From: Faecalibacterium sp. I4-1-79 | GTDB lineage: Bacteria; Bacillota; Clostridia; Oscillospirales; Ruminococcaceae | Length of the DNA: 64,000 bases | Direction: 5' to 3' | Assembly: GCF_023347235.1 (NCBI RefSeq) | Contig: NZ_CP094467.1 | Location: 2,480,001-2,544,000 of the forward strand | In this document: piece by piece, positions 2,317 through 9,801 of the stretch | Position numbering within the stretch: the first letter of the stretch is position 1 | Layout of the letters: each line of letters opens with the position of its first letter | Notes under the pieces: generated by a model | What the model was told of the DNA's origin: nothing | Databases searched by the model: none | The model's input: only the letters and a program-made list of their open reading frames with translations | Made by a program: the position numbers and the translations under genes

Positions 2317-2973
2317 TTATTTCCGCAGGCGCTTATCGCTCTTGGTGGCCCACAGGGTACCCACAGACTGGAACGCCTGCACCATCAGCACCAGCAGCAC
2401 CACACAGACGATCATGATGTTGGTCTGGTAGCGGTAGTAGCCATAGGACAGGGCGATCTTGCCCAGACCGCCGCCGCCGATGACGCCGGACATGGCGGAG
2501 TAGCCCAGAATAGTGGTCAGTGCGGTGGTCATGCTGGAGATCAGGCCGGGCAGGCACTCCGGGATCATGACCTTGGTGATGATCTGGAAGGGGGTAGCGC
2601 CCATGCTCTGGGCAGCTTCCACCACGCCCTCGTCCAGCTCCCGCAGGCTGGTCTCCACCAGACGTGCCACAAAGGGGAAGGCGGCGACCACCAGCGGAAC
2701 GATGGTGGCCTTGGTGCCCACCGTAGTGCCCACGATGGCGCGGGTAAGCGGGAATACACAGATCATCAAAATCAGGAAAGGCACACTGCGCAGGATGTTG
2801 ATGACGATGTTGATCAGGTGCATCAGCCAGCCGGGCAGGGGCAGGATGCCGTCCTTGTCACCGGCTACCAGCAGCACACCCAGCGGCAGACCCAGCACCA
2901 GCGCAAAGGCGGTGGAAAGCATCGTTACATAAAAGGTCTCCCAGATGGCAAAGCCGTAATCTGCGATATTCAT
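2317..2973 (-). CDS. metI: methionine ABC transporter permease MetI
   Basis: 218 residues starting MNIADYGFAIWETFYVT. It is a five-to-six-helix integral membrane permease with the EAA loop (EAAQSMGATPFQIITKV) that docks on the ATPase, followed by GYSAMSGVIGGGGLG, typical of MetI. The ATG at 2973 overlaps the metN stop (ATGA), and GAGGAGGTG precedes it, so translational coupling is likely; a longer frame up to 3084 only runs through metN. It forms the membrane channel for D/L-methionine import with MetN and MetQ. Confidence 0.95.
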   Translation of the reverse strand: MNIADYGFAIWETFYVTMLSTAFALVLGLPLGVLLVAGDKDGILPLPGWLMHLINIVINILRSVPFLILMICVFPLTRAIVGTTVGTKATIVPLVVAAFPFVARLVETSLRELDEGVVEAAQSMGATPFQIITKVMIPECLPGLISSMTTALTTILGYSAMSGVIGGGGLGKIALSYGYYRYQTNIMIVCVVLLVLMVQAFQSVGTLWATKSDKRLRK

Positions 2974-3983
2974 ATACCGGTCACCTCCTCTACCGTTACG
3001 CCAGACTGGCTGCGCATATACTCCATAGCCTGCTGTGCGACAGCAAGCTCTGCGGGCAGCTTGAGCAGCATGGAGCCGTAGCACTGGCCGCTCAGATCAC
3101 GGGTATCGGCGCTGAGCACCGACACCAGAATGCCTTTTTCGGCGGCAAGGCTTGCCACCAGCGGCTTTGCGGTGGAGGAACCATTAAAGGTAACGCGCAC
3201 CACATGGTCATCCGGCGCAAAGCAGGAAAGATCCCGCGCTGCGCTGCCGCCGTTGGGTGCCACCAGACGCTTGGCGGCTGCCGTTTTGGGGTTTGCAAAA
3301 ATTTCCTGTACCGAGCCCTGTTCCACGACCACACCGCCGTCCAGAATGGCCACGCTGTCGCAGATCTCCTCCACCACGCTCATCTGGTGGGTAATGACCA
3401 CCACGGTGATGCCCAGCTTACGGTTGATATCCTTGATCAGGGTCAGGATGGAGTGGGTAGTGTTGGGGTCCAGCGCACTGGTAGCCTCGTCGCACAGCAG
3501 CACCTTGGGGTTAGTAGCCAGTGCGCGGGCAATGGCGATGCGCTGTTTCTGACCGCCGGACAGCTGTGCCGGGTAGGCGTTAGCCTTATCCGGCAGACCC
3601 ACCATCTCCAGCAGCTCCATGGCACGCTTTTCGGCCTCAGCCTTCTTCACGCCTGCCAGCTCCATGGGGAAGCAGACGTTCTTCAGGCAGGTGCGCTGCA
3701 TAAGCAGGTTGAACTGCTGGAAGATCATGGTAATCTCCCGGCGGCGCTTGCGCAGCGAGGCGGGAGACAAAGTCTCCATTGCCACGCCGTCGATCACCAC
3801 GCTGCCGCCGGTGGGGCGCTCCAACAGGTTGATGCAGCGCACCAGCGTGGATTTGCCCGCACCGGACATGCCGATGATGCCGTAGATCGCGCCATCGGGA
3901 ATGGTGAGGTTGATGTTCTGCAGCGCTTTCACCGCGCCATCCTTCATCTGGAAGGTCTTGGAAAGGTACTTGAGTTCGATCAC
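2970..3983 (-). CDS. metN: methionine ABC transporter ATPase MetN with NIL domain
   Basis: 337 residues. The ATPase core shows Walker A GMSGAGKST, Q-loop MIFQQFNLL, signature [15 protein letters not shown] and Walker B VLLCDEATSALD, then an H-loop in VVITHQM. About 75 residues at the C-terminus (roughly 260-337) match the NIL regulatory domain, which binds methionine and inhibits transport when the cell is replete (known for E. coli MetN). It follows metQ by about 36 bp and overlaps metI by 4 bp. Start at 3983 is supported by AAAGGAGCAATTTCTGTG just upstream. Confidence 0.96.
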   Translation of the reverse strand: MIELKYLSKTFQMKDGAVKALQNINLTIPDGAIYGIIGMSGAGKSTLVRCINLLERPTGGSVVIDGVAMETLSPASLRKRRREITMIFQQFNLLMQRTCLKNVCFPMELAGVKKAEAEKRAMELLEMVGLPDKANAYPAQLSGGQKQRIAIARALATNPKVLLCDEATSALDPNTTHSILTLIKDINRKLGITVVVITHQMSVVEEICDSVAILDGGVVVEQGSVQEIFANPKTAAAKRLVAPNGGSAARDLSCFAPDDHVVRVTFNGSSTAKPLVASLAAEKGILVSVLSADTRDLSGQCYGSMLLKLPAELAVAQQAMEYMRSQSGVTVEEVTGI

Positions 3984-4019
3984 AGAAATTGCTCCTTTAG
4001 CTTATCCCTCGATGGTAGA

Positions 4020-4934
4020 TTATCCCTCGATGGGTGCCAGACTGTCCTGCTTGCCGCCGTAGACGCCCATGGGCTCTACGTGAATACCGGCAACGGTCAC
4101 CAGATGGGTACCCTTTTCGGCGTTGAAGTTGTCCAGATACGGCTGATGCTGGAAGTAGTTGGTGTCTACCTGACCGTCCTCGACGATCTGGTTGGGGATC
4201 ACATAGTCGTCGTACTCCTGAATATCCAGCGTGATGCCCTTGGCGGCAAGGATCTCCTTGCACACCTCCAGCACCTCGCAGTGGGGAGCGGGAGTAGCGG
4301 CGCAGCTGACGGTCTGGCCGTTCAGAGCGTCATAGTCCAGAGTGGAATCGTAGCCGTCGGTGGGGTTCTCCACAACGGACACCACGGAGCCCTTGTAGGT
4401 CTCGTCCATGAAGTCCTTCACCTTCTGGCTCTGCAGAGCAGCGGCCAGAGCCTTGATCTTGGGCTCCTCCTGATTGCCGTCCTTGCAGACCAGAATGTTG
4501 ACGTAAGCAGAAGAGCCGTCCTCCATGGCCAGTGCATCGGTCATGGGGTTCAGACCGGCAGAGATGGCGTAGTTGGAGTTGATGACGGCGTAGTCCTCGT
4601 CCTGCAGGACGTTGGGCACCTGAGCGGCCTCCACCTCGTCCACGGTGACGTTCAGGGGGTTCTCCTCGATGTCGTTCTTGGTGGCGGTCAGGCCGGCATC
4701 TGCCTTCAGCTTGAAGAAGCCGTTCTTCTCCAGCAGGGTCAGGGCACGAGCCTCGTTGGTGGTATCGTTGGGCACAGCCACCTTGATCTTATCCAGCTTA
4801 GCTGCGGCAGAGGATGACACGCTGCCGGATGCAGCGGCGGAAGAAGCAGTGGAAGAAGAACCACCGCAGGCAGTCAGGGCAGCGGCTGCGGCTGCCACAC
4901 CGGTAACTTTCAGAAAATCGCGACGAGTAATCAT
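4020..4934 (-). CDS. metQ: methionine-binding lipoprotein MetQ with circularly permuted order
   Basis: 304 residues. The signal ITRRDFLK...LTAC is a twin-arginine-like lipoprotein signal with the lipidated Cys at 23, followed by a Ser/Ala linker. Residues about 50-185 (VAVPNDTTNEARAL, NDIEENPLNV, EVEAAQVPNVL, AVINSNYAISAGLNP) correspond to the C-terminal half of ordinary MetQ/NlpA proteins. Residues 213-304 (ATPAPHCEVLE, DDYVIPNQIVEDGQVDTNY, FQHQPYLDNFN, GIHVEPMGVYGGK, DSLAPIEG) correspond to the N-terminal half. The order is therefore swapped relative to E. coli MetQ, with a roughly 25-residue linker joining the two. The stop is followed by a near repeat of ATCGAGGGATAA. It heads metQ-metN-metI under a Met T-box. 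Function in methionine capture is inferred from the family and neighbours. Confidence 0.93.
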   Translation of the reverse strand: MITRRDFLKVTGVAAAAAALTACGGSSSTASSAAASGSVSSSAAAKLDKIKVAVPNDTTNEARALTLLEKNGFFKLKADAGLTATKNDIEENPLNVTVDEVEAAQVPNVLQDEDYAVINSNYAISAGLNPMTDALAMEDGSSAYVNILVCKDGNQEEPKIKALAAALQSQKVKDFMDETYKGSVVSVVENPTDGYDSTLDYDALNGQTVSCAATPAPHCEVLEVCKEILAAKGITLDIQEYDDYVIPNQIVEDGQVDTNYFQHQPYLDNFNAEKGTHLVTVAGIHVEPMGVYGGKQDSLAPIEG

Positions 4935-5021: not shown

Positions 5022-5328
5022 AAAATGCCCCCGTCCTTACGAGCCCTAGACTCTGCAAGGACGGAGGCATGAACATACTTCCGTGGTACCACCTTGGTTC
5101 ACTGTACCCTTACGGATACAGCCTCGATGCTGCGGCAGCGTGTACTGCTTACAGCCGGACGCTGTAACGGGCGCATCCCGTTGCGGGCTTAGCACTCCTG
5201 CGCCTCGTCCGCACGGCTCCGAGACCATTTTCAGCTTCCTGTTTCCTGCCCTTTTCCACCGCCCGGGCTCTCTGGTAAGGATCAATGCGAAGGCCTACTC
5301 TTCTCTTCACAGCCATTTTTGTGATATT
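5022..5328 (-). promoter_or_regulatory. T-box leader, methionine specific
   Basis: Read on the minus strand, the leader contains the T-box core AAGGTGGTACCACGGAAG (complement of about 5080-5097) and a terminator whose arms are 5031-5038 and 5057-5064 followed by six T. The Specifier region reads GCTGAAAATGGTCTC, with AUG at 5227-5225, so uncharged Met-tRNA is the expected ligand. It controls metQ-metN-metI and probably metY-metA. The span from the promoter to the T run is about 300 nt, the usual T-box size. Confidence 0.93.
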
Positions 5329-6960: not shown

Positions 6961-7779
6961 TTATGCCTTGATGTACTTGATTTTTGCAGTAACCTTCACT
7001 TCGCCCTTATTGTTGCCCAGATAGTTAATGCGGAACGGACCATTGCCCACAGGCACGACCTGAATCAGAATCTTATCCTGGCCCATCCAGGCTTCCTTGC
7101 TCACCTTCGGCAGCTGATTCGCATACAGGAAGGTAACATCCATGTCCACATTCATGGTAGCCTCGCCGATACAGTTTTTATCGATCTGCTCAAGGCCCTC
7201 CTTATAGTAGTAAACGGTAACTTCCTTCTGCTTCGCAGGGTTGACCGGCTTAACCTCCATCACAACGCGGTTGTTCTCGCTGATCTGGTTCTTGCCGTTG
7301 TCGATGATCTCGTAGCCGGGCAGAGCTTCCTTCAGATCGGTCTTGTAAACAAAATCAGTATCCGATGCAACGGTAATCGTCATGGTGGTGCTCAGCATAG
7401 CTTTGTTAACGGAGTCGTAGAATGCAACCGTAACCTTCTTGCCGGTATCGATCTTCTTCAGGTCGACAAGTACGCTCTCCTTGCCGCCGATCTCCTGGAT
7501 CTTCAGCTCACCGGTGCTCTCCATAGTATAGCCCTGCGGGATCTGCTCAGCCTTAATCATGGAAACAGGAACAGTCTTGGCGTCCTTTTTAACAACAACA
7601 GAACCATCCTTGCCAGCAGTTGCGCCCTTGTACATAAAGATGACCTTAACTTCCTTGGTCACTTCGGGAATCACAGGAGCATCCTCCTTGGAGCAGCCTG
7701 CCATCATGCCAGCAGCCGCAACAGCCAGAGTAGCAACACCTGCGCTCTTCAGGAACTGACGACGAGAGATATTAGACAT
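6961..7779 (-). CDS. Tat-type lipoprotein of unknown function
   Basis: 272 residues. It starts MSNISRRQFLKSAGVATL and has the lipobox MAGC, so it should be exported folded by Tat and lipid-anchored. The mature part has no family I recognise. It is beta-rich in appearance with three similar stretches (KEVKVIFMYKGA, KKVTVAFYDSVNKA, KEVTVYYYKEGL), suggesting repeated small Ig-like or ubiquitin-like beta modules. It is a single gene with its own promoter and a terminator shared with yjjB. ATG at 7779 is preferred because GTGAGG precedes it and the signal motif begins right there; a frame start at 7794 is possible. Confidence 0.75.
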   Translation of the reverse strand: MSNISRRQFLKSAGVATLAVAAAGMMAGCSKEDAPVIPEVTKEVKVIFMYKGATAGKDGSVVVKKDAKTVPVSMIKAEQIPQGYTMESTGELKIQEIGGKESVLVDLKKIDTGKKVTVAFYDSVNKAMLSTTMTITVASDTDFVYKTDLKEALPGYEIIDNGKNQISENNRVVMEVKPVNPAKQKEVTVYYYKEGLEQIDKNCIGEATMNVDMDVTFLYANQLPKVSKEAWMGQDKILIQVVPVGNGPFRINYLGNNKGEVKVTAKIKYIKA

Positions 7780-7844
7780 AATAATCAACCTCACGATCTT
7801 TTATTTTCAGCTCCTACTACAAAACAGGAGCTTGTTCTTCTATA

Positions 7845-8881: not shown

Positions 8882-8964
8882 AAGTGCGTTCCCCGAAAGC
8901 GCGATGAATCGCATCCCATCGGGGCAAAGCAAACTATATTGCATAGATTGAGGAGTGTTTGAAT

Positions 8965-9801
8965 ATGAAAAAGATCTCTCGCCGCAGCTTCATGGCTGCC
9001 GCTGCTGTTTCCGTTGCTGCTCTGGCTATGACCGCCTGCGGTGGTTCTGCAAGCTCTGCTGCTTCCTCTGTGGCAAGCTCTGCCGCTTCCTCCGAGGCTG
9101 CTTCTTCTGCCGCTGCTGCTGAACTGACCACCGTGGAGGCCGGCAAGCTGACCATGGCTACCAACGCTGCCTTCCCTCCGTACGAGATGACCACCGATGC
9201 CGGCGAGTTCGAGGGCATCGACGTGGACACCGCCAAGGCCATTGCTGAGAAGCTGGGTCTGGAGCTGCAGATCGATGATATGGACTTTGACGCCGCACTG
9301 CTCAGCGTGCAGCAGGGTAAGGCCGACATCGTGATGGCAGGCGTTACCGTGACCGACGAGCGCAAGGCTGTGATGGACTTCTCCGACAGCTACGCCACCG
9401 GCATCCAGTCCATCATCGTGCCCAACGATTCCGACATTGCTTCTCCCGACGATCTGGCCGGTAAGACGATCGGCACCCAGCGCGGCACCACCGGCTACAT
9501 CTACTGCTCCGATGATTTCGGCGATGAGAACGTGGTTGCTTACGACGACGGTCTGACCGCTGTGCAGGCCCTGAACAATGGTCAGGTGGACGCTGTGGTC
9601 ATCGACAACGCTCCCGCACAGGAGTTCGTGGCTGCCAACCCCGGCCTGAAGGTGCTGGATACCAGCTACGCCGAGGAGGATTACGCCATCGGCATGGCAA
9701 AGGGTTCTGCTCTGGAGGACGCTGTCAACAAGGCTCTGGAGGAGCTGAAGGCTGACGGCACTCTGCAGGCCATCGTGGACAAGTACATCAACGCAAACTA
9801 A
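8965..9801 (+). CDS. polar amino-acid ABC transporter substrate-binding lipoprotein
   Basis: 278 residues from ATG 8965, with GAGGAG about 9 bp upstream; a TTG at 8959 is less likely. The signal reads KKISRRSFMAAAA and ends in the lipobox MTAC, a twin-arginine-type lipoprotein signal, then a Ser/Ala-rich linker. The mature part is an SBP family 3 protein: LTMATNAAFPPYEM, GIDVDTAKAIAEKLG, GKADIVMAGVTVTDER, GKTIGTQRGTTG. It should deliver a polar amino acid to the permease and ATPase that follow. A terminator (9833-9865) separates it from the permease, which likely gives more binding protein than membrane components. Confidence 0.93.
   Translation: MKKISRRSFMAAAAVSVAALAMTACGGSASSAASSVASSAASSEAASSAAAAELTTVEAGKLTMATNAAFPPYEMTTDAGEFEGIDVDTAKAIAEKLGLELQIDDMDFDAALLSVQQGKADIVMAGVTVTDERKAVMDFSDSYATGIQSIIVPNDSDIASPDDLAGKTIGTQRGTTGYIYCSDDFGDENVVAYDDGLTAVQALNNGQVDAVVIDNAPAQEFVAANPGLKVLDTSYAEEDYAIGMAKGSALEDAVNKALEELKADGTLQAIVDKYINAN

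Follow-up and report, generated by a model that had tools for sequence, protein, structure and literature searches.

Lobe order of the window MetQ

The 64,000-nucleotide stretch of the Faecalibacterium sp. I4-1-79 genome analysed here (the window) carries the gene metQ (4020–4934; 304 amino acids plus stop), which codes for a circularly permuted methionine-binding lipoprotein; this gene, its leader, and the other genes of its cluster lie on the minus strand. The chain begins with a lipoprotein signal peptide of the twin-arginine translocation (Tat) type (RRDFLK ... LTAC; 4866–4934), for which Pfam TAT_signal gave 29.2 bits against a cut-off of 22.7; the lipobox LTAC with the lipid-carrying Cys23 was read from the sequence. 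It is followed by a Ser/Ala-rich tether (residues 24–48; 4791–4865), mostly below 50 in the predicted local distance difference test score (pLDDT) of the AlphaFold model, and by the C-terminal lobe of MetQ, which now stands first (residues 49–186; 4377–4790; positions 97–234 of Lipoprotein_9; assigned by Pfam and alignments). A linker of 21 residues, VVENPTDGYDSTLDYDALNGQ (residues 187–207; 4314–4376; pLDDT block means of 96–99), read from the sequence, connects the old C- and N-termini. The N-terminal lobe comes last (residues 208–304; 4023–4313; about positions 1–100 of Lipoprotein_9; assigned by alignments), and the chain ends with SLAPIEG at the close of this lobe.

The Lipoprotein_9 profile (PF03180) matched the protein in two stretches (E 7e-74; 248.3 bits against a cut-off of 27), the best of which aligned residues 49–186 with positions 97–234 of 236. 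No collinear match, with the N-terminal lobe before the C-terminal lobe, was obtained, the order being reversed; to judge from its sequence, the protein owes its place in the family to descent and content and not to the order of its domains. At E 0.01 only PF03180 and TAT_signal matched, with no hit to the Type I or cluster B sugar-binding family, to which the permuted TpMglB-2 discussed below belongs. In a phmmer search against PDB sequences, every one of the 22 distinct chains listed matched in two stretches; the two alignments shown in full paired residues 205–302 and 207–299 with the chain start, and residues 50–185 and 51–186 with the second half. E. coli MetQ likewise aligned in two crossed pieces (129–268 to 48–185, and 44–128 to 220–303), and a single collinear piece appeared only when the window protein was doubled (44–268, 39% identity, 9e-50), which is the dot-plot check that the original prediction had called for. 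The E-values exclude chance as the source of the crossed alignment. The canonical MetQ of Gemmiger (L074; L and G numbers denote the loci and genomes of this analysis) was also collinear with the doubled protein, over 257 residues at 55% identity (53% and 59% by half). These results confirm that the two lobes stand in reversed order by circular permutation. The original prediction, made from the nucleotide sequence, had proposed this permutation, naming the inter-lobe hinge as the site of the cut and giving the linker about 25 residues. The Pfam, PDB, and E. coli alignments agree with such a cut, and the linker proved to be roughly 21–25 residues in length.

The predicted structure pointed the same way. 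The AlphaFold model is a confident fold (pLDDT 91), of which solved MetQs cover only about half in sequential alignment, while a canonical sister aligns over its full length. The model (4023–4868) also fits OpuAC and HisG end to end in sequential order but loosely, presumably owing to the pseudo-symmetry of the lobes. The reversed order was found in one intact frame in all Faecalibacterium loci fetched by name (L046–L066 and L068), including one on a complete chromosome (L063, NZ_CP094466); the closest named relatives of the window MetQ are from Faecalibacterium prausnitzii (Clostridia; 99% identical). The ratio of nonsynonymous to synonymous substitution rates lay between 0.086 and 0.192 across the lobes of seven pairs, and purifying selection acts on both lobes. 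A frameshift, a misassembly, or a decayed gene was considered as a rival explanation, and an assembly join or frameshift between the halves had been named beforehand as the finding that would undo the claim. The shared frame and order in independent assemblies and one complete genome, the selection on both lobes, and the confident fold leave this explanation a negligible probability.

Operon context and probable function

The gene order in the window is Q-N-I, MetN and MetI being the best-matching models of the two partner genes. The first partner is a metN-like ATPase with an NIL domain (2970–3983; best model TIGR02314, 372.6 bits, under the cut-off of 499.7), and the second is a metI-like permease (2317–2973; best model NF008049, 208.2 bits, just under the cut-off of 212). 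MetQ itself scored under the cut-offs of its own NCBIfam models (160.1 against 228.85 bits with TIGR00363, and 163.5 against 374 with NF008285). The cluster continues with an O-acetylhomoserine sulfhydrylase-type enzyme (950–2224; TIGR01326, 553.3 bits, cut-off 495.1), and its far end (1–810) holds a gene whose product, we presume, resembles homoserine O-succinyltransferase. This last gene stays beyond the sulfhydrylase gene in most of the Faecalibacterium loci that are long enough to show it. Upstream of metQ lies a T-box-like leader (5054–5319; Rfam RF00230, E 1.4e-18). The match spans the whole model at 83.3 bits, below the gathering score of 93, at which no leader was called, and the specifier of this T-box-like leader reads AUG (Met) by eye.

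Proteins of the NlpA family can vary in ligand, and a permuted homologue that binds a compound other than methionine has therefore to be considered. The apparent Met specifier of the leader and the neighbouring O-acetylhomoserine sulfhydrylase gene argue against such a change, as do the pocket residues: nearly all canonical MetQ invariants are conserved in the permuted MetQs, and Asn229 of E. coli MetQ, which according to PMC12357092 is required for tight binding, has an aligned equivalent in Asn146 of the window MetQ, in the C-terminal lobe that now stands first. Another ligand appears quite improbable on these sequence data, and the permuted MetQ is most likely an ordinary substrate-binding lipoprotein of MetNIQ. 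It would be exported and lipid-anchored, close on methionine like any MetQ, and hand methionine to MetNI, with the anchor attached to lobe 2, on its hinge side, and not to the start of lobe 1.

Distribution, linkers, and tethers

The same arrangement, for which a search among relatives had been suggested, was found in the window's own family, order, and class and also in Coriobacteriia. Counting as permuted the genomes with a single collinear match, in draws that overlap and include the window's own genome, permuted MetQ occurred in at least 23 of 297 genomes of the family (E 1e-3), 31 of 394 of the order (E 1e-40), 16 of 341 of the class (E 1e-44), and 3 of 299 of the phylum (E 1e-40). It occurred also in 8 of 197 genomes of Coriobacteriia, the class of Enteroscipio, a diverged copy (L156) included; a 149-genome draw from the phylum of Enteroscipio gave 17 matches at E 1e-25, of which that of Enteroscipio alone was collinear. 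All fetched open reading frames (ORFs) with both halves were either AB or BA, and no ABA or BAB protein was present among them. The distinct rows comprise 89 permuted and 116 canonical proteins, the latter having mostly entered as relatives of a permuted query and not as a random draw. Pfam searches detected no second Lipoprotein_9 protein in the window's own genome, where MetQ stands alone, nor in any of 12 other genomes that carry a permuted MetQ, several of which are drafts.

Three kinds of linker occur among the permuted MetQs, matching three groups. In group I, to which the window MetQ belongs (19 family codes), the linker has 21–22 residues, mostly DG(Y/F)D..(V/I)(D/N)Y..L.G; in group II (14 loci, each from the window's own family, which has the code f1), 15–16 residues, MG...L..PEI.EPV or similar; and in group III (Coriobacteriia), 18–20 residues. 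Where the partners were seen, the operon order was Q-N-I in group I and N-I-Q in groups II and III. The cut site is the same in all groups, the chain ending a few residues past the hinge SL and the fold beginning a few residues ahead of the VAVPND-type strand. L156 (2440–3417) is a very diverged permuted MetQ-like protein (29% identity) from a Coriobacteriia genome that also holds a canonical MetQ. It was not counted as a fourth origin because of its long branch (2.5) and because its best other relative lies in group III (38%).

Linkers of groups I and III resemble the leaders of some canonical MetQs. The group I linker matches the leader (lipobox to first strand) of canonical L030, L031, L074, and L190, which reads GDGFD..(V/I)DY..L.GT; none of 500 shuffles scored as high for any of the four, and no other canonical leader in the comparison matched as well (L041 and L040 being additional copies of L030 and L031). 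The operons of these four loci share the Q-N-I order of group I, and, together with L027, they have the MetN most similar to that of group I among canonical operons (68–74%; others at most 62%), with MetI at 64–72% (others at most 64%). The leader match, the shared order, and the similarity of MetN and MetI lead us to suggest, as the most likely course, that the group I linker derives from the old N-terminal leader. In group III, canonical L072 has a leader that fits the linkers of L128 and L127 (0 of 500 shuffles as high) and, weakly, that of L067 (12 of 500); in the 52-row tree described below, L072 and L069 together stand as sister to the group III region.

The lipid tether was compared as the distance from the cysteine to the fold, in a count that leaves out five canonical rows and one permuted row without a lipobox hit. 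The median was 7, 7, and 6 residues in groups I, II, and III (66, 14, and 7 rows), and 19 in canonical MetQ (range 6–293; 111 rows). The window MetQ is an exception, with 27 residues by the same measure, and the group I maximum of 107, thought to be L059, is probably a wrong lipobox hit. The short tether of all three groups may be a convergent trait, and at the hinge side it may be a consequence of the permutation, which would have changed the position at which the protein is held. As to the signal peptides, twin-arginine (RR.F) motifs occur in the window in metQ (4866–4934) and, by eye, in the lipoproteins at 6961–7794 and 8959–9801. Among permuted MetQs the motif is confined to 24 group I rows, all Faecalibacterium by title or genus code, and it is also present in six canonical rows elsewhere.

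Origins and comparison with known systems

Trees were built on distinct rows, without the incomplete L043 and the B-only ORF of L135; the later trees, in which rows were thinned by identity from 205 to 127, omit L078, one of the two L138 rows, and L033–L036, and the further thinned 79-row set also omits L156, L120 (both), L170, L171, L194, and L174. In the 145-row tree, the permuted MetQs formed three clades with canonical ones between them (Clostridia, some genera of the window's family, and Coriobacteriia). A tree with more canonical rows and L156 needed five changes, four of them forced by starred branches. The approximately unbiased test rejected groups I, II, and III as one clade (p 0.0012 with 79 rows and 0.000135 with 52 rows), and all pairwise unions were rejected in the careful 52-row tree (I+II 4.8e-11, I+III 0.0054, and II+III 2.3e-7).

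In trees of each half alone, every half sat nearer to canonical rows than to any other permuted group. The nearest canonical rows belonged to the own family for group II and mostly to the own class for group III; the two halves of group I disagreed on theirs. The half trees are short and poorly resolved. The disagreement in group I would suit a chimera, in which halves of different genes were fused and no single gene was permuted. On the other side, the nearest canonical rows of both halves overlap for groups II and III, and the doubled window protein is collinear with its canonical sister L074 over the 257 residues given above, so that we regard a chimera as highly improbable.

The best reading of these sequences is that the permutation arose independently about three times in the MetQ family, at the same hinge each time, and we are quite confident that the window protein is a MetNIQ methionine-importer lipoprotein whose circularly permuted chain had such a repeated, always hinge-cut origin. 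Several results weigh against it. The pairwise unions were not rejected in the quick 79-row tree (I+II 0.086, I+III 0.073, and II+III 0.068), and the 52-row set was hand-picked after earlier trees, although the label permuted or canonical is not derived from a tree. In the 52-row tree canonical L147, L200, and L203 fell within group III, so that a reversion or a further event may have occurred; holding the group together was not rejected (p 0.054 with 52 rows and 0.773 with 79). The tree of the A half needs two changes for group I and three for group III, neither being a single clade. For the group II linkers, none of the canonical leaders gave a good match (best distinct score 23, L192). One Coriobacteriia genome (G1408) has canonical L152 alongside permuted L156, a whole-protein search of the window's own genome gave seven matches at E 0.001, with MetQ among the matches listed, and the NCBIfam models of MetQ, MetN, and MetI all fall short of their cut-offs.

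Some of these results would suit one ancient permutation that spread by descent and horizontal transfer and was later reverted in several canonical lineages. The canonical rows nested in group III and the unrejected pairwise unions fit this explanation, and reversion would also leave the linker-like leader that the canonical sisters of group I bear. However, the single clade of all three groups was rejected, the canonical proteins with this leader make up a separate clade next to group I and not within it, the linkers and the operon order differ between the groups, and the MetQ chains in the PDB list have the canonical order. An ancient permutation followed by reversions is considered unlikely. 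Returning to repeated origin, we consider a fuller proposal probable: at least three independent permutations at one hinge (in Clostridia, in genera of the window's family, and in Coriobacteriia) would have replaced canonical MetQ in the tested genomes, turned the leader into a linker in two of the three groups, and left a tether of a few residues, which would speak for a repeated advantage of anchoring at the hinge.

The route may have begun with a tandem copy or in-frame fusion of canonical metQ. The inter-lobe hinge would then have acquired a new start with a signal peptide, and a new stop would have come to follow lobe 1 of the second copy, whereby the old N-terminal leader would have become the linker. 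In genome G1195 (L157:2164–3855) two canonical metQ share a reading frame and are separated by a single stop, and G1464 (L138) has two metQ in tandem; such copies possibly model the expected intermediate. The matches of G1195 and G1457 ran across stops, and both proved canonical, G1457 holding one canonical gene. The ORFs of 572–581 amino acids in L033–L036, candidates for tandem-MetQ intermediates from junction-crossing hits, turned out to have another binding domain, which we take to be of the polar-amino-acid type, ahead of a canonical MetQ. They are from the window's own family (G156, G277, G063, and G224), the G156 copy having an altered end. The original prediction had seen in the short repeat ATCGAGGGATAA at the metQ stop codon a hint of a past tandem duplication. 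The repeat is real but strain-level: it occurs only in the own genome and L047 among 13 Faecalibacterium loci, and L046, from an F. prausnitzii with 99% identity, lacks it. It reflects a recent tandem duplication of about 18 bp over the stop (3998–4033; L003 and L047), absent in the other 11 loci. Because the permutation spans many families and the repeat only two of 13 loci, it is not the founding scar.

To our knowledge, natural circular permutations are rare and usually number one per family, and cause is therefore hard to separate from chance. The MetQ family, with several apparently separate events at one site, would be an unusually clean case of repeated topology change. In addition, related genomes supply canonical sisters, the linker retains a fossil of the old N-terminus, and tandem canonical copies make a plausible intermediate, so that the effects of topology, anchoring side, and folding order become directly testable. 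If true, the recurrence of the permutation at the hinge would suggest that anchoring the flytrap there was of advantage more than once. For annotation, sequential aligners catch only half of such a protein at a time, and the window MetQ scores below the NCBIfam cut-offs for MetQ. Searches of the open-access literature turned up no account of a permuted MetQ; subscription papers and bioRxiv were not covered, and this absence is weak evidence because the coverage is partial.

In comparison with known systems, the window MetQ shares with canonical MetQ (E. coli, 4yah; R. gnavus, 4ib2; Gemmiger, L074) both lobes, the conserved pocket residues, the lipoprotein anchor, and the adjacent metN and metI. 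It differs in the reversed lobes, the hinge-side anchor, the old termini joined by a linker, and the opened hinge loop. The permuted halves of the T. maritima ribose-binding protein, which have reportedly been studied (PMC9815098), likewise present permutation and duplication as a route in the evolution of periplasmic binding proteins, but as laboratory constructs. The nearest natural counterpart is TpMglB-2 (Tp0684) of Treponema pallidum. PMC4990184 describes this ABC-importer lipoprotein, a bilobed substrate-binding protein, as naturally permuted and functional, with the proposed designation Type Ic and with permutations of this type reported also in Gram-positives. In contrast to the window MetQ, which is cut at the hinge between whole lobes, TpMglB-2 has, according to the same paper, a type I sugar-binding fold in which the permutation lies inside a lobe and adds a fourth crossover. 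Natural permutation of a substrate-binding lipoprotein was thus already known from TpMglB-2, and what appears to be new here is a permuted MetQ with a probable repeated origin.
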